In this document: positions 1 through 49,093 of the stretch, piece by piece
Layout: every line of letters begins with the position of its first letter
Numbering within the stretch: position 1 is the first letter of the stretch
Source of the DNA: a virus
Direction: 5' to 3' (one strand)
Virus record (IMG/VR): IMGVR_UViG_3300006919_000089
Location: 1 to 49,093 of that record
DNA: 49,093 nucleotides
Notes under the pieces: model-generated
Databases searched by the model: none
Told to the model about the DNA's origin: nothing
The model's input: only the letters and a program-made list of their open reading frames with translations
Translations under genes and position numbers: made by a program

Positions 1-291
1 CCTATTAGGATTTTCTTTTTTTAATTTTTCTAATCTATCTTTTAATCTTTGCTGGCCAGTAAATTCTCCTTTTAATGTAGTGTTTACCCCAGTGTTATAT
101 ATTTCCTCATATAAAGATTCTAATAAATTTAAATCATTTCCGTCTTTATATTTTTTTATAATTCTTTTTACCTCATCTAATGTATTTCCTTCCTCTCCTG
201 TAGTAACCCAACCAGAGCTTGTAAATTTCCCTATTGATTCAAATAACTTTTGAGCATCTTTTTTTGCTATTTCTTTGCTTATATCTGCCAT
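1..291 (-). CDS. Partial hypothetical protein, C-terminus off the left edge
   Basis: An open frame of 97 codons starts at 291 (MADISKEIAKKDAQKLFE) and runs off the window without a stop. Its ATG shares one base with the stop of the upstream gene (TAATG), which supports the start and co-transcription with the virion genes. The sequence is charged and probably helical, with a GW-then-acidic stretch followed by two amphipathic helices ending in Lys/Glu-rich residues. The helix pattern loosely recalls annexin-like repeats seen in some phage cargo proteins, but this is a weak visual resemblance. Function unknown; likely a virion or internal protein by position. Confidence 0.7.
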   Translation of the reverse strand, partial: MADISKEIAKKDAQKLFESIGKFTSSGWVTTGEEGNTLDEVKRIIKKYKDGNDLNLLESLYEEIYNTGVNTTLKGEFTGQQRLKDRLEKLKKENPNR

Positions 292-26652: not shown

Positions 26653-26757
26653 AATTAGACATAAAATATGCGTATATAAGTGTGAGTACTATATAGTCTA
26701 ATAACCCCTATAAACGTACTAATAATAGCTATAATAACAGTGTAATTACTGTAAGTT

Positions 26758-26770
26758 ATTGATAATCAAT
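26758..26770. repeat. Perfect 13-base palindrome
   Basis: ATTGATAATCAAT reads the same on both strands around a central A/T. It lies next to a looser inverted repeat (ACAGT, GTAATT, ACTGT). A candidate operator or protein-binding site in the control region. Confidence 0.5.
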
Positions 26771-26816
26771 CAGTTATTGTTTAAATATCATTTATAACAA
26801 GTATATAATATATGTT

Positions 26817-26838
26817 CTAATATATTTAGCTGATTAAT
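26817..26838 (+). repeat. Direct repeat, copy 1 (22 bases)
   Basis: Starts CTAATATATTTAGC and ends TGATTAAT. Identical to a copy at 26928-26949, offset 111 bases. Copy 1 lies upstream of the promoter-like pair and copy 2 downstream of it. Confidence 0.8.
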
Positions 26839-26879
26839 ACTAATAACTAACTAATGAGTTTGCGAAGTTATACATTTTA

Positions 26880-26910
26880 TTTGACATTGTCAAGCGTTTA
26901 ACTATTTTTT
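26880..26910 (+). promoter_or_regulatory. Candidate early promoter with palindromic operator
   Basis: TTTG at 26880-26883, 19 bases, then TATTTTTT at 26903-26910, one base from the -7 consensus TAnnTTTG. The perfect palindrome TTGACATTGTCAA (26881-26893) overlaps the -33 box, as an operator would. Transcription would start near 26917 and run into the right arm, with about 80 bases of leader before the gene at 26997. Confidence 0.5.
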
Positions 26911-26927
26911 ATGACAAATTATATTCA

Positions 26928-26949
26928 CTAATATATTTAGCTGATTAAT
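26928..26949 (+). repeat. Direct repeat, copy 2 (22 bases)
   Basis: Identical to 26817-26838. It falls in the presumed leader of the first right-arm transcript and abuts the first copy of the T-rich leader element. Confidence 0.8.
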
Positions 26950-26966
26950 TTTTCAACTTAATAATA
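26949..26966 (+). repeat. Leader element TTTTTCAACTTAATAATA, copy 1
   Basis: An 18-base element found again at 27288-27305 (identical) and 27434-27451 (one difference). Each copy lies 25-50 bases upstream of a gene or beside a structured element. Confidence 0.7.
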
Positions 26967-27305: not shown

Positions 27306-27314
27306 ACTAAACAT

Positions 27315-27433
27315 AAAGAATAGTGAATGGAGTGTGCACGCTCTCCTCTTCAGCAAGGACGAAAAGAGCCTTTAAAATACACTGCTGTTAACTCGTAAAA
27401 AATATGCGCACAGAGAGGGGTATACTATTCTTT
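27315..27433 (+). ncRNA. Structured intergenic RNA closed by a 10-bp stem
   Basis: AAAGAATAGT (27315-27324) pairs perfectly with ACTATTCTTT (27424-27433), and T's continue after it. Inside are a hairpin GGAGTG-TGCA-CGCTCT and a second arm in which CAGCA pairs with TGCTG and encloses AGG/CCT. The element fills the 204-base gap between two genes and ends in a terminator-like T run, so it could be a small RNA, a 3'-end structure or a cis-regulator. I do not recognise a known class. Confidence 0.6.
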
Positions 27434-27451
27434 TTTTTCAACTTAACAATA
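27434..27451 (+). repeat. Leader element TTTTTCAACTTAACAATA, copy 3
   Basis: One base different from copies 1 and 2. It continues directly from the T run of the structured element and leads into the gene at 27483. Confidence 0.7.
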
Positions 27452-28156: not shown

Positions 28157-28540
28157 ATGGAAAAAGAAATCTATGAAATCTCTTCACAATACATGAAAGA
28201 TTTAAAAAAATTGCTTGATAACAAAAAAATATCACAATATGATATTGCACATCAATCATTTAGAAAGAACAATGCTGATTGGATCATTAAGCATGTTAAC
28301 AAAGCCAAATTAACTATTACATATCTTAATGGCACTACAAGAGTATTGCCTACATATACTGAGCTTATGAAAAGAGTTAACTGGAGTAATAATGATTATA
28401 AATCAGCTAGAAGAAAGTTTATTGCAAGATATTATAAAATAGTAAATGCTTTTACTAAGCATAAAAACAGATTTAAAAGAAACACTTTAGCTAATCGTTT
28501 TAATCCTAAGCAGATTAAACAGTTAGCATCACAAATATAG
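28157..28540 (+). CDS. Basic hypothetical early protein
   Basis: 127 residues from the ATG at 28157 (MEKEIYEISSQYMKDLKKL). An upstream in-frame ATG at 28103 would start inside the terminator and is rejected. The protein is Lys/Asn-rich and basic (RKFIARYYKIVNAFTKHKNRFKRN), with a helical N-terminus and a strand pair ITYLNGTTRVLP. Nucleic-acid binding would fit its charge but no family is recognised. Its TAG stop is the first part of the hairpin that starts the structured RNA array. Confidence 0.6.
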   Translation: MEKEIYEISSQYMKDLKKLLDNKKISQYDIAHQSFRKNNADWIIKHVNKAKLTITYLNGTTRVLPTYTELMKRVNWSNNDYKSARRKFIARYYKIVNAFTKHKNRFKRNTLANRFNPKQIKQLASQI

Positions 28541-28589
28541 TATAGGTGTAAATCACAAACCACGTATATGGTAGATGATTACTATACTA
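28538..28589 (+). ncRNA. Structured RNA array, element 1 (long hairpin)
   Basis: TAGTATAG (28538-28545) pairs with CTATACTA (28582-28589). Further pairs are TAaATCA with TGATTA (one bulge) and ACCA with TGGT around a 6-base loop, giving about 18 pairs in one interrupted hairpin. The upstream gene's stop codon is in the stem. No T run follows, unlike elements 2-4. Confidence 0.6.
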
Positions 28590-28598
28590 AAATAGGTT

Positions 28599-28667
28599 GG
28601 GAGTAGGTGCGTGTGGCCACGGAATGATAACTAACGCGTAGCGGTTATTACTACTCCCTTCCTTTTT
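28599..28667 (+). ncRNA. Structured RNA array, element 2
   Basis: GGGAGTAG (28599-28606) pairs perfectly with CTACTCCC (28651-28658), then TTCCTTTTT. Inside are CGTG-TGGC-CACG and ATAAC/GTTAT hairpins, so the element is a closed three-way junction. It shares boundary sequence (GGTTGG before, TTCCTTTTT after) with elements 3 and 4. Confidence 0.65.
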
Positions 28668-28678
28668 CTATAAAGGTT

Positions 28679-28742
28679 GGAGTCCACGCGTGTTAACTAA
28701 GGTCAGATAAAGCAACGCACTGATTGGGCTCCTTCCTTTTTT
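28679..28742 (+). ncRNA. Structured RNA array, element 3 with possible pseudoknot
   Basis: GGAGTCC (28679-28685) pairs with GGGCTCC (28726-28732, one G-T pair), then TTCCTTTTTTT. Inside, GCGT (28688-28691) can pair with ACGC (28715-28718), and TCAG (28703-28706) with CTGA (28720-28723). These pairings interleave, which is an H-type pseudoknot arrangement. Confidence 0.6.
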
Positions 28743-28752
28743 ATAAAAAGTT

Positions 28753-28813
28753 GGGGTGGCTTAACGAATAACCGAAACTCGGTACGGTAAACTAGCCACT
28801 CCTTCTTTTTTTT
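28753..28813 (+). ncRNA. Structured RNA array, element 4
   Basis: GGGGTGGCT (28753-28761) pairs with AGCCACTCC (28794-28802, one G-T pair), followed by TTCTTTTTTTT. Inside is ACCGA-AAC-TCGGT. The strong stem plus eight T's would also act as an intrinsic terminator just before the gene at 28835. Confidence 0.65.
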
Positions 28814-28834
28814 ATTAACTAAAAACAAATAATT

Positions 28835-29392
28835 ATGCCAAATTGGTGCTGGAATCACCTAGAAGTATCAGGTGACGAAAAACAACTACAAGAATTTGTA
28901 GAAAAATCAACAACAAATATTGAAACAAGTGATGAATTTTCATTTGAAGGCACTCTACCACGTGGTGATCGTAAAGATTGGTATGATTGGAGTATAAATA
29001 ATTGGGGGACTAAATGGGACGCTTGCGAACCTAATATATGTCATAACGATATAGATTACTTTGCTGTATCATTTGAATCAGCTTGGACTCCTCCTATAGC
29101 TTGGATAGATAATATTATGCAAGATTTTCCCAACTTATCTTTTACGTTAGAATATGAAGAACCAGGCATGTGCTTTGGTGGTAGACTATCAGCACAATAC
29201 GAAGTAATATGGGATGATTTAAATTGGGACTTAGACCCAGCTTCAGAATGTTGTGAAGCAGAAGTATCGTTTGATGAAGATGGCTTTCATGGAGAAGCTA
29301 AATGTCTTGTATGTGGAGAAGAAACAGAAACAATAAGTATTAATGTGGCTGATATTAAGCCTGCTAAAATTAAAGTAAATGAAAGTAAATAA
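28835..29392 (+). CDS. DUF1281/YubB ferredoxin-like domain protein
   Basis: 185 residues. MPNWCWNHLEVSGDEKQL, then NNWGTKWDACEP and FAVSFESAWTPPIAWIDNI, is the clear signature of the phage/plasmid family around DUF1281 (YubB-like ferredoxin fold): M-P-N-W-x-x-N, N-W-G-T-K-W and T-A-W-x-P-P. The C-terminal part adds ECCEAEVSFDEDGF and CLVCGEE, cysteine pairs that may bind zinc. Function of the family is unknown. It starts after the RNA array and heads a run of small overlapping genes. Confidence 0.8.
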   Translation: MPNWCWNHLEVSGDEKQLQEFVEKSTTNIETSDEFSFEGTLPRGDRKDWYDWSINNWGTKWDACEPNICHNDIDYFAVSFESAWTPPIAWIDNIMQDFPNLSFTLEYEEPGMCFGGRLSAQYEVIWDDLNWDLDPASECCEAEVSFDEDGFHGEAKCLVCGEETETISINVADIKPAKIKVNESK

Positions 29393-34246: not shown

Positions 34247-34394
34247 TTTAATAGGTAAGTATCCTATTATATCAACTGTAATAATTGCTAGCATAGTTTT
34301 TGTTGTAGGGCCAATTATGTTTGCATTAATTATTGCAGGAATTGTAGTACTGCCAATGTATTTAGCTGTTCAAATACTTGGTGACACAGAATAA
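34233..34394 (+). CDS. Small two-segment membrane protein
   Basis: 53 residues from an ATG inside the helicase end (14-base overlap): MKKFSLIGKYPIISTVIIAS, IVFVVGPIMFALIIAGIVVL, PMYLAVQILGDTE. Two hydrophobic segments with a basic N-terminus. Its 3' end holds the -33 box of the next promoter. Function unknown. Confidence 0.6.
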   Translation: MKKFSLIGKYPIISTVIIASIVFVVGPIMFALIIAGIVVLPMYLAVQILGDTE

Positions 34395-34407
34395 TATCGT
34401 ATATTTG
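34378..34407 (+). promoter_or_regulatory. Promoter matching the Bacteroidetes consensus
   Basis: TTG (34378-34380), 19 bases, TATATTTG (34400-34407). This fits the Bacteroidetes -33/-7 consensus and is the best match in the window. The ATG of the HU-like gene is only 7 bases after the -7 box, so the transcript would be nearly leaderless. It overlaps the end of the membrane protein gene. Confidence 0.7.
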
Positions 34408-34414
34408 CCTCTGT

Positions 34415-34666
34415 ATGGACAAGAATAAAAGAGGTAAATCTAAAGTAAAATCTATAATAAATGAGATTGCTTACGATTTAGGAATTGACAAAAAACTTGT
34501 TAGACAAGTACTTCTTTTGACATTTAAAGAATTAGCTGTTACTTTATTGTTAAGAGGTAGGCCTGTTATGATAAGAAGATTTGTAAAATTTGTAATAGCT
34601 GCAACAAGAGTTAAAAATCTAGCAGTAAAAAATAAAAAAGAAAAACAAAAACAAGAATCAGAATGA
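34415..34666 (+). CDS. HU/IHF-like DNA-binding protein (short)
   Basis: 83 residues. SIINEIAYDLGIDKKLVRQV and LLTFKELAVTLLLRGRPVMI, then RRFVKFVIAATRVKN, follow the HU/IHF plan: two helices, then a strand with the V-x-I-R-x-F-x-x-F box. The DNA-clasping arm is shortened and the C-terminus is a Lys/Glu tail. It would bend or coat DNA, or act in replication or recombination. It is followed directly by the annealing protein gene (ATGA overlap). Confidence 0.65.
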   Translation: MDKNKRGKSKVKSIINEIAYDLGIDKKLVRQVLLLTFKELAVTLLLRGRPVMIRRFVKFVIAATRVKNLAVKNKKEKQKQESE

Positions 34667-35738: not shown

Positions 35739-35850
35739 ATAAATGAGAGAGATAACAGATCCCTAGGATCAGGTAAGTGTCCTGCTAGACAGGTTAAACT
35801 TTTAAGATTTAAGTGCGCCACAACTCCAAGGGTGAAACTCTCAAATTTAT
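35739..35850 (+). ncRNA. Multi-branched structured RNA between SSB-like and RusA genes
   Basis: The outer stem pairs ATAAAT-GAGAG (35739-35749) with CTCTC-aa-ATTTAT (35838-35850), 11 pairs with a 2-base bulge. Inside: GATCC-CTA-GGATC (35758-35770), CCTG-CTAGA-CAGG (35781-35793) and ACTT/AAGT (35798-35814). A first CAGG (35770-35773) can compete for CCTG, so the fold could switch. No T run follows. I recognise no known ribozyme or riboswitch core. Confidence 0.6.
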
Positions 35851-35865: not shown

Positions 35866-36231
35866 ATGGCAGAGATATTTATAGCAGGAAATGTCCCCTC
35901 TAGTAAAAACGGAAAACGATGGACAGGTAAATATTTAATTCATTCTAAAACAGTAATGAATTATATAAAAAACACAAAACAAGACTGGATTAAAAACAAA
36001 GAAAAGTTTGAAGAACTAATTAAAGACAAAGAAATGCCATACAAAATAGAATTTACATTTATAAGAAATAGCAGAAGAAAGTTTGATTATATAAATCCTT
36101 GTCAAACAGTTCAAGACTTAATGGTTACATATGATTACATAGAAGATGATAATTGTGATTGTGTAATACCTAGCTTTGGCGAGTATAAATACGACAAAAA
36201 TGATTCAGGAGTAAAAATAAAAGTATTATGA
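35866..36231 (+). CDS. rusA: RusA-family Holliday junction resolvase
   Basis: 121 residues. IAGNVPSSKNGKRW and KFDYINPCQTVQDLMVTYDYIEDDNCDCV reproduce the RusA layout: V-P-S-x-N, then the catalytic aspartates in D-Y-I-N-P...x-D-x-L...I-x-D-D-N. It cuts recombination and replication intermediates in phage DNA before packaging. The length is normal. It overlaps the next gene (ATGA). Confidence 0.85.
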   Translation: MAEIFIAGNVPSSKNGKRWTGKYLIHSKTVMNYIKNTKQDWIKNKEKFEELIKDKEMPYKIEFTFIRNSRRKFDYINPCQTVQDLMVTYDYIEDDNCDCVIPSFGEYKYDKNDSGVKIKVL

Positions 36232-36671
36232 CAAAAAATCAAGCATTAACAAATTTTCTTTTAGATTATTGCAAAAAAGTTAATATAACAATAGAGCAAT
36301 TGTATCATAAATCTAGAAGAAGAGAATTAGTAGAACACAGAATGACTTTAGCATTTATTTTAAGAAAATCATTAGGAATGAAATATCAAGAAATAGCTGA
36401 AGCTTTAAAAAGAAATCATGCATCTATTATTTATCAAGTTAAAAATATGGAAAACTTTATATCAGTTTATCCACATATTAAAAGATTACATAATGTAGCA
36501 GATGAAACCTTATTAGAGCATAAAGAATATTTGGTTGAATTTTATAATTCTCCAATAAGCTCTCAATTAGAAAGAGAAAAAAAGTTAGTTGAAATACTAT
36601 TAGATAACAATTATAAATTAAAATCAAAAATTAAACAATTAAAAAAAGAATTAGATGGCGTTAAAAACTAA
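36228..36671 (+). CDS. DnaA domain IV-like DNA-binding protein with coiled-coil tail
   Basis: 147 residues. ITIEQLYHKSRRRELVEHRM, LAFILRKSLGMKYQEIAEAL and KRNHASIIYQVKNMENF match the DnaA C-terminal domain: R-R-R-E/D-L-V-x-x-R-x-x-x-x-x-L-x-R...Y-x-E-I-A-x-x-x-x-R-x-H-x-S-I/T-V/I-x-x-x-x. The AAA+ ATPase part is absent. The C-terminal 50 residues are Lys/Glu coiled coil. It could recognise a DnaA-box-like origin, compete with host DnaA, or act as a regulator. Confidence 0.7.
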   Translation: MTKNQALTNFLLDYCKKVNITIEQLYHKSRRRELVEHRMTLAFILRKSLGMKYQEIAEALKRNHASIIYQVKNMENFISVYPHIKRLHNVADETLLEHKEYLVEFYNSPISSQLEREKKLVEILLDNNYKLKSKIKQLKKELDGVKN

Positions 36672-37055: not shown

Positions 37056-37108
37056 TTTTGATTGCATTGGGGCCCTCCTTCGGGAGGGTCTTAATGTCTC
37101 TAAAATCA
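37056..37108 (+). ncRNA. Structured leader of the exonuclease gene, UUCG hairpin
   Basis: A strong hairpin GGCCCTCC-TTCG-GGAGGGTC (37071-37090) lies inside GCATT/AATGt and TTTGAT/ATCAAA pairs (ends near 37056 and 37108). The ATG is 6 bases after the last pair. It has no T run, so it is not a plain terminator. The outer stem would place the start codon next to structure. Confidence 0.55.
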
Positions 37109-46627: not shown

Positions 46628-49093
46628 TTATTTTATTTTTATTTTCTTTTCAATACTTCCATCACTATAAATATAAAAAAGCAAATTATTATTATTATTT
46701 TTTGCAGGTCTTCCTAATAAATCTGTAATCATTATTAATTCTTTTTTATCATATCTGCTAAATAAAGGCCCAGACCAAGTTCCTGTACAATAATCATAAG
46801 TAGCTTGACATATTGTATCCCATTCATTTTCACAACAGTAATCATCTACTTCTATTACCCAAGCGTAACATTCATCATTTAAAAAGAAAGGATTTCCAGA
46901 TCCATTTATACACCAGGTTGCAGCATATAAACACCCTAGAGAGTCATGCCCGTGATTTATGTTTGCTAAAGGATTATAATTCCATGCGTTTAAATCCATA
47001 CATCCCTGAACCACTTCAATACACGAACCGTTATCAGTATTAGCTGTTGAATCATAATTAAAAGCAGTACTATCCATACAACCATAAACATAAGAAATGC
47101 AATTAAAATCTTCTGTATTAGCTTCTGGGTTAAAGTTAAGCATTGAGGGATCAGTACAACCGTAAATATAAGGAATACAAGAATTATTATCAGCATTTGC
47201 TAAAGGGTTATAATTAAACATTGTGCTGTCTATACAGCCGTAAACAAATGGTATGCAAGACCCATTGTCTATATTTGCTAATTGATTATAATTAAACATC
47301 GTAGGGTCTGTACAGCCATATACTATATCTATGCAGCTATTATCTTCTACATTAGCCAACGGGTCATAGTTAAATGCATTAGGATCCATACAGCCATAAA
47401 CAACACCTATGCAACTACCGTCATCAGTGTTAGCGTCAGGGTTATAATTAATAGCTATACTACTAGTGCAGCCAGTTACAACAGGTATGCAATTACCAGC
47501 TGTATTAGCACTTGCATTATAATTAAATGCTAAAGGATTCATACAACCTACAACTACTGCTATGCAACCACCATTATCTACGTTAGCAGAAACATCGTAA
47601 TTAAAAGCATTTATGTCTGTACAACCAAACACCGCTAAGTTAACACAACTAGTGTCATCTATATCAGCGGTATAACCTTGCGTGTAATATTCTAAATAAG
47701 CTGGAGATGTACAACCAGGACTGTAATAACACGTGTCAGCAGTATTAGCTGTATCACTATAATTATAAGCCGTAGCATCTAAACAACCAACTATTACATC
47801 TATACACTCGTTACCACAGTAAGGTAAAGCAGCGTGAATATCTTCTGGATTTTTAAAATCTCTTAATTTGTTTTCGTTTGGACCAGGCCAAGGGTTATTA
47901 CCTTCATAAAGTATAACACCATAATTGTTTTCTAGTTTAAATGAATTTTGTATCGTCTGAATGTCTAACTGTTGAGGATTTTGCTGAGGAGTTGGTACCT
48001 CAAAGTAATACACGTAAACTTCTTTGTAAGCGCTTAGAGATAAATTAAATGTATCAGAATAAATACCTATTGAATCAATTTTAAATTGCCACAAAGAATC
48101 ACCTTGTCTTACACCTAACCAACAATTACCCCATGAATCACCACCTGCGTCATATAATATTAAATTATAATCACAAGGAGTTGTTAGCTCCATTTTATCA
48201 GCCAAAGGATCGTAGTTAAAAGCCAGAGAATCTATGCAGCCGTAAGTGGCTAAATTGTTACACGACCCATCATCTGTGTTAGCAAACTCATTATATTCTA
48301 CATAGTTGTCATCCATACAACCAAGTATTGGTGTATTACCATCACAAACACCAGCGACATAAGGAGTTGACGATGCGCTAAACCCAAAGTTAGGTGGGTT
48401 TAAATTAAATATAGTATCAAGACAATCTGTATTAGTAACTAAACAACTACCAACAACCGCGCCCCCTCCAATACCATCACCGTAAGTATCATTAATAGTA
48501 AAGACTATAGTATCTCCAATAGGTACACATACTTCTGTATATACAGTTTGCCCAACTTGTGTGTAGTCATAAGTTCCAGATGGTATAGACTGTATAATGT
48601 TACCGTTAGCTTTTATTTCCCAATAAGTTTCAGCAGGCCAATTATCTAGTAATATAGCTATTTCAATTAATGATTGATTTACATTACAAGCAACCTCCAT
48701 TACACATGTACCGTTATCTATATTAGCCCATGGGTTATAATTTTCAGCTAATGAATCCATACAACCAAGAACATAAATACAACTACCATTACTAACAGTC
48801 GCTAAAGGATTATAATTTGGAGCTACAGAATCAGTACAGCCAAAAACAACAGCAAAAGCATCACTAACTTTTACATCATCAATACATATATCACTAGTAT
48901 ATAGAGAACCAGTGTTACCTACAAAAGCTATTTTAAAGTCATGTTGTAAGTTTAGACTATCTAATGGGTAATAAGCAAAATGCCAAGGCATACCTTGATC
49001 ACCATCGTAAGCGCCTATAAATATATAATTACCCATTACATCTATAGCTGCTATTTCTAGCTCACCCATTTCAGGACCAAACATATGGTACCA
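46628..49093 (-). CDS. Secreted-type Cys-repeat protein with MAM-like and T9SS sorting-like domains, N-terminus off the edge
   Basis: 821 residues in frame to the window end; the true start lies beyond it, so no signal peptide can be judged. The first 80 residues (YHMFGPEMGELEIAAIDVMG, DICIDDVKVSDAF) look like the second half of a MAM-type adhesion domain. About 15 Cys repeats follow (G-C-x-D-x-x-A-x-N-Y-N-P-x-A-N-x-D-x-G-S-C), ten of them consecutive near the end. The C-terminus includes ECYAWVIEVDDYCCENEWDT and ends ELIMITDLLGRPAKNNN...FYIYSDGSIEKKIKIK, the pattern of T9SS substrate sorting domains. It shares an operon with the holin-like genes, 2 bases upstream of the next one. Confidence 0.72.
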   Translation of the reverse strand, partial: WYHMFGPEMGELEIAAIDVMGNYIFIGAYDGDQGMPWHFAYYPLDSLNLQHDFKIAFVGNTGSLYTSDICIDDVKVSDAFAVVFGCTDSVAPNYNPLATVSNGSCIYVLGCMDSLAENYNPWANIDNGTCVMEVACNVNQSLIEIAILLDNWPAETYWEIKANGNIIQSIPSGTYDYTQVGQTVYTEVCVPIGDTIVFTINDTYGDGIGGGAVVGSCLVTNTDCLDTIFNLNPPNFGFSASSTPYVAGVCDGNTPILGCMDDNYVEYNEFANTDDGSCNNLATYGCIDSLAFNYDPLADKMELTTPCDYNLILYDAGGDSWGNCWLGVRQGDSLWQFKIDSIGIYSDTFNLSLSAYKEVYVYYFEVPTPQQNPQQLDIQTIQNSFKLENNYGVILYEGNNPWPGPNENKLRDFKNPEDIHAALPYCGNECIDVIVGCLDATAYNYSDTANTADTCYYSPGCTSPAYLEYYTQGYTADIDDTSCVNLAVFGCTDINAFNYDVSANVDNGGCIAVVVGCMNPLAFNYNASANTAGNCIPVVTGCTSSIAINYNPDANTDDGSCIGVVYGCMDPNAFNYDPLANVEDNSCIDIVYGCTDPTMFNYNQLANIDNGSCIPFVYGCIDSTMFNYNPLANADNNSCIPYIYGCTDPSMLNFNPEANTEDFNCISYVYGCMDSTAFNYDSTANTDNGSCIEVVQGCMDLNAWNYNPLANINHGHDSLGCLYAATWCINGSGNPFFLNDECYAWVIEVDDYCCENEWDTICQATYDYCTGTWSGPLFSRYDKKELIMITDLLGRPAKNNNNNLLFYIYSDGSIEKKIKIK

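Follow-up and report, generated by a model that had tools for sequence, protein, structure and literature searches.

What occupies the gap between two early genes of this virus, and whether its contents act on the neighbouring genes or elsewhere, is the question raised by this locus. The window, which is the entire virus record of 49,093 bases, encodes a major capsid protein of the crAss type (PF23898, E 2.7e-35) and a P22-like portal, and annotated relatives of its terminase come mainly from Flavobacterium, Bacteroides and Cellulophaga phages. The virus is a distant relative of crAssphage and, because of this capsid, portal and set of terminase relatives, its host probably belongs to the Bacteroidota. 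From ~26.4 kb, structural genes are oriented leftward and early/replication genes rightward. The gap (28541-28834, 294 nt) lies on the early side, between the genes for a 127-aa basic protein and an Api92-like protein, and contains four successive closed-stem elements (E1-E4); a fifth module (E0) occupies the preceding early gap.

27312..27440 (+): E0, fifth closed-stem module, AAGAAUAGU/ACUAUUCUU followed by U8
28157..28540 (+): upstream gene, 127-aa basic protein, homologues of which almost always precede RNA modules
28538-28589 (+): E1 (family E), 8-bp closing stem UAGUAUAG/CUAUACUA, no U tract
28594-28667 (+): E2 (family A), three-way junction with 8-bp P1, AGG-UU-GGGAGUAG ... CUACUCCC-UU-CCU-UUUU
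28600..28657 (+): match to covariance model R1 of family A
28672-28741 (+): E3 (family C), AAAGG-UU-GGAGUCCA ... UGGGCUCC-UU-CCUUU, U tract
28745-28815 (+): E4 (family B), hairpin plus internal loop, AAAAAG-UU-GGGGUGGCU ... AGCCACUCC-UU-CUUUUU, U tract
28835..29392 (+): downstream gene, Api92-like protein with a DUF1281_C domain, in relatives not always the neighbour

The 127-aa protein has no match in Pfam, PHROG, or PDB sequences or folds, and a known RNA-binding fold was rejected, as its AlphaFold model (pLDDT 77) gave no significant structure match.

The folding energy of the whole gap lies below that of all 200 dinucleotide shuffles (z -3.97), and the coordinates and anatomy of the four elements agree with a preliminary description made from the letters alone. 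Folded singly, E4 is the strongest (z -4.65), E2 (z -2.45) and E3 (z -2.44) are moderate, and E1, the start of which overlaps the stop codon of the 127-aa gene, is the weakest (z -1.67); the folds of E1-E4 are not due to chance. The same description had noted common boundaries around differing interiors in the second to fourth elements, which is borne out by an outer frame common to E2-E4 (AGG-UU-stem ... stem-UU-CCU-U tract, the UU/UU forming a symmetric internal loop) that encloses unrelated cores. Four plus-strand elements with the UU/UU frame and outer pairs occur in the window, three of which are E2-E4, compared with 0-1 in shuffles. As far as their sequences tell, E2-E4 share a frame and not an ancestor. 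By our own terminator-type stem score, E2-E4 rank as the top three of the whole 49-kb window (26-32 vs 17-24.5 for the rest). The G+C-rich hairpin running directly into a U tract that characterizes intrinsic terminators is present in E2-E4 and absent in E1, so the earlier proposal that every element carries its own terminator stands for the terminator-like ends of E2-E4 and fails for E1. The short loop of such terminators (3-8 nt) is not found in E2-E4, the interiors of which span 32-44 nt, and a standard terminator scan of the window does not list them. ARAGORN found neither tRNA nor tmRNA, consistent with the earlier remark that the elements fit no tRNA layout.

The core of E2 (family A), GYGUGUGGCCAYGGAAWGAUAACUAA, was found in 20 viral contigs and is nearly unchanged among relatives, being invariant apart from a loop. 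Compensatory changes, which were to be sought in relatives, occur in its closing stem P1: counted on eight distinct sequences, 100% of cells are paired and 5/7 pairs are changed on both sides, which was equalled by 0-1 of 500 shuffles. P2 and P3 are almost invariant, and covariation neither supports nor contradicts either helix. Family A is carried by 10 of 16 records, in exactly one copy each. The E4 core (family B) was found in 10 contigs; its internal loop (CUUAACRAAU/UACGGUAAACUAG) never changes, and the helices on either side of it vary. Copies of E1 occupy the same place in L006, L009 and L017 (91-95% identity). E3 possibly contains an H-type pseudoknot (GUCAG 28702-28706 / CUGAU 28720-28724); its copies in another gene context (L043/L062) are 100% identical and provide no variation within the putative pseudoknot. 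E0 is weak by energy alone (z -0.63), and its core, GAGUGURYACGCUCUCCU, has a match in one other viral contig (L023/L165), with L042 sharing the 3' part only. Covariation tests cover families A, B (few sequences) and a third family, D. Because model-fitted alignments lean towards their structure, an alignment-free arm swap was also conducted, which scores the best stem that the two flanks of a module form with each other against that formed with flanks from another member; permutations as good as the native pairing numbered 15/5000 for A, 52/5000 for B and 0/5000 for D.

A sister module that this window lacks, family D, was identified in 97 viral contigs (L075-L164 among them) with 85 distinct sequences, and a model built from 10 of these sequences finds 76 among the loci, E-values of such home-made models being rough. 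In its helices P1 and P2, 12/12 pairs show changes in both partners, paired cells amount to 97.3% of the total vs 80.3% in shuffles, and covariation reaches 0.48 vs 0.18 in shuffled (0/500) and 0.13 in slid versions, so that helices covarying across relatives are present in both A and D. One D core per record was found in 25 records of up to 90 kb, where single copy means per record, as records are mostly fragments and contigs partly non-independent; one record contains one further one-mismatch match, to which the D pattern does not fit. Long forms (~150 nt) with an extra domain occur in L006, L009 and L046. A U tract (>=6 T in 8) follows 52/78 D modules against a background of 10%, and about one third keep the stem and lack a strong U tract. 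D is located mainly between co-directional replication genes, mostly ~35-60 nt before the next start, and in most carriers no homologue of the 127-aa gene lies upstream of it. The crAss-type capsid match of D carriers is strong, weaker or none, and records of ~30 kb may be incomplete. Two candidate roles were rejected. Shine-Dalgarno mimicry is not a general role, since a match to the complementary sequence of the 16S rRNA tail, seen in many D arms (AGAAAGGAGG), is missing from A, B and several D arms. The D core also resembles a promoter (UAUACUUUG, similar to TAnnTTTG), but this role is at odds with the incorrect spacing and with covariation in both arms of P1 and P2.

Protein searches for relatives yielded 38 and 11 loci. 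One to several closed-stem modules follow almost all homologues of the 127-aa gene (~30 relatives), usually at a distance of 0-30 nt, with the exception of a distant homologue (L036) that precedes a simple hairpin only. Together, 24 arrays contain 53 modules in ~23 sequence clusters, where a few of the singletons are short or doubtful hairpins, and one module adjoining family A was merged into A by an imperfectly split fused domain. No two modules of one array are alike. The arrays are therefore sets of different RNAs and not duplications, and the notion of duplicated small RNAs, which the preliminary description had put forward, is not supported, given these differing, single-copy cores. Over 330 nt, L023 and L024 share flanking genes at 99% and 97% identity, yet the module between them differs; this pair provides the evidence for swapping, L022 having been left out on account of a false start codon inside its module. 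Furthermore, a gene intervenes between the copies of E2 and E3 in L043, and the same module cores adjoin unrelated genes in other contigs. Across contigs, loop and core sequences are the most conserved part and the closing stems vary.

Searches against Rfam 15 gave 0 matches in the window at the curated gathering threshold, and relaxing the cutoff to E 10 added nothing but low-scoring matches to unrelated families; in 12 relatives GOLLD was found elsewhere and nothing at the modules, and no model matches E1-E4 or D. Neither the array nor the D module was found in annotated isolate phages at blastn sensitivity, and a match to Cellulophaga phi13:2/phi18:3 (28 nt inside coding sequence, E 0.9) was dismissed as chance. 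A plasmid search with E2 gave no match. In exact scans of 84,980 bacterial and archaeal species genomes, core A had 0 matches and core D two isolated, chance-looking ones. The array is not described in the literature searched, which included few subscription papers. A hammerhead, twister, pistol or hatchet ribozyme was rejected for want of an Rfam match, and to our knowledge the consensus of none of these fits the modules. The reverse transcriptase (PF00078) of retrons and DGRs is absent from the record, which is possibly incomplete, while positive controls were detected.

Several known systems share features with the array. Like E2-E4, intrinsic (Rho-independent) terminators consist of a G+C-rich stem followed by 5-8 U, but they are unlike modules that have long interiors and invariant cores and that, in E1 and many D members, lack a U tract. 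Racr RNA anti-CRISPRs are likewise small structured non-coding RNAs on phages, but they mimic CRISPR repeats (PMC10651486), whereas cores A and D, the two that were scanned by exact match, showed no similarity to a host CRISPR repeat and never formed a repeat in the scanned genomes. Pseudo-ToxI of phage PhiTE and type III antitoxins resemble the array as recombining phage RNA loci and in that E3 may be a pseudoknot. Pseudo-ToxI, however, comprises tandem copies of one 36-nt unit in a locus that changes by recombination (PMC3475682), whereas all units differ here and ToxI-like tandem near-identical repeats are absent. A search of the record for a ToxN-type toxin, run without a positive control, found none. 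GOLLD and other metagenome candidate RNAs (PMC2864571, Rfam) are also structured RNAs of phages and metagenomes with functions not known, and GOLLD (RF02032) itself occurs in a D-carrying contig (L139 675-1060, +), but it measures ~400 nt. Phage tRNA arrays are comparable in their tandem small structured RNAs, short AT-rich linkers, early operon and variable set, but differ from this array in consisting of tRNAs. Phage structured non-coding RNA is a known kind; the novelty here lies in exchangeable single-copy cores set in a constant frame.

The explanation that we tentatively consider best is that the modules are swappable structured RNA cassettes, which would be released as small RNAs acting in trans and in which the closing stem would often serve as a terminator. 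The gap would encode four different self-contained RNA domains as cassettes of the early operon, with the conserved core as the working part and the driftable closing stem presenting it; in E2-E4, the closing stem and U tract could also form the 3' end of the transcript. We infer that punctuation or cleavage of the operon transcript would yield discrete RNAs of ~50-80 nt, each potentially acting in trans on its own host or phage target. The single presence of each type and the differing sets of close relatives make it probable that such targets vary with the host. The cassettes are swapped between phages, plausibly via the common frame. With A and D present once in each record, records of 85-90 kb included, a general terminator or processing site would be odd, and a gene-specific switch would be odd because the same core precedes unrelated genes; single copy, unrelated neighbours and a dispensable U tract together favour trans-acting RNA domains. 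Against such action in trans, the modules are sense-oriented between co-directional genes, as expected of a cis element, and core sequence conservation alone fails to separate trans from cis. Independent transcription of the array is unsupported, because no Bacteroidota-type promoter (TTG-N17-23-TAnnTTTG) was found beside it and the promoter scan gave no excess over shuffles.

Less probable but still credible are regulated terminators (attenuators) acting in cis, in which the core would bind a factor or ligand that stabilises or melts the closing stem and thereby sets read-through into the early genes downstream. The U tracts that end E2-E4 and are enriched in D fit this role, as does the placement of modules between co-directional genes, where the short distance from D to the next start leaves little room for a promoter. 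However, unrelated genes follow the same core, each record contains one copy, a strong U tract is missing from E1 and from roughly one in three D modules although the stem is kept, and one switch is hard to read from three consecutive terminators with different cores. A more general version of the trans-acting cassettes, which we regard as rather doubtful, would comprise modular phage RNA cassettes with a constant closing frame, exchangeable single-copy cores and host-dependent sets traded between unrelated Bacteroidota phages, in effect the RNA equivalent of anti-defence gene islands.

Cis-acting elements for mRNA processing or stability, which would separate or protect neighbouring cistrons and use the cores as nuclease or RNA-binding protein sites, are unlikely but still a live alternative. 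Their intergenic sense-strand location, the AT-rich linkers, the dispensable U tract and the gene for the basic 127-aa protein beside the array in ~30 relatives are in agreement with such a function, but a general site would be expected many times per genome, not once per record as for A and D, and most D carriers lack the 127-aa homologue upstream of D. As a special case of action in trans, the modules could be anti-defence decoys that mimic host RNAs bound by a toxin, CRISPR or other immune factors. Non-redundant sets differing between near-identical phages would suit an arms race, and phage RNAs that disarm defences are known (Racr, PMC10651486; pseudo-ToxI, PMC3475682), but no host original of cores A and D was found in the genomes scanned, and the missing tandem repeat units also render decoys quite improbable; the search for ToxN in the record, likewise without a find, lacked a positive control. 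AT-rich phage terminators typically show purine/pyrimidine stems, which those of the modules resemble; nevertheless, ordinary terminators with meaningless loops are hardly credible despite the terminator-like tails, since loops are conserved where stems vary, and the pure array of terminators suggested earlier is not supported, given cores conserved to the base and modules without a strong U tract.

Many environmental phage contigs contain recurring RNA families that are absent from Rfam, at least three in number (A, B and D), two of them with covariation support, and D crosses phage lineages. It is unusual for interchangeable cores to sit in a constant frame, and the frame together with the 127-aa gene offers a handle for collecting many more modules. 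If the RNAs act in trans, they would form a scarcely studied level of the conflict between crAss-related phages and their hosts.

Additional features were observed elsewhere in the window. An early intergenic element at 35742-35840 (+) retains the flanks GAGAGAUAACARAUCCCUAG ... CCAAGGGUGMAACUCUC with a differing interior in L003, L051, L067 and L030 and is, on this comparison, another frame with an exchangeable interior; a TAnnTTTG-like box lies 3' of it, just before the ATG at ~35866. A noncoding stretch of 300 nt (26660-26960), in which the repeat AATATATTTAGCTGATTAAT occurs twice, is 82-88% conserved in many relatives and is a possible origin or early control region. A match to the Bacteroidota-type promoter (TTG-N19-TATATTTG) at 34378-34415 (+) ends ~8 nt before an ATG, which possibly indicates a leaderless mRNA. 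The protein encoded at 36228-36671 (+) has Pfam matches only to the DnaA C-terminal DNA-binding domain (PF08299), and a repeat-rich protein with many GCxDxxAxNYxPxA units (46628-49084, -) is possibly a secreted or tail-associated adhesin. Lastly, an intergenic 15-bp hairpin with a UUCG loop (37064-37097, +) is very stable (z -4.37) and shows conservation of ~95% (L051, L125) and 97% (L067).
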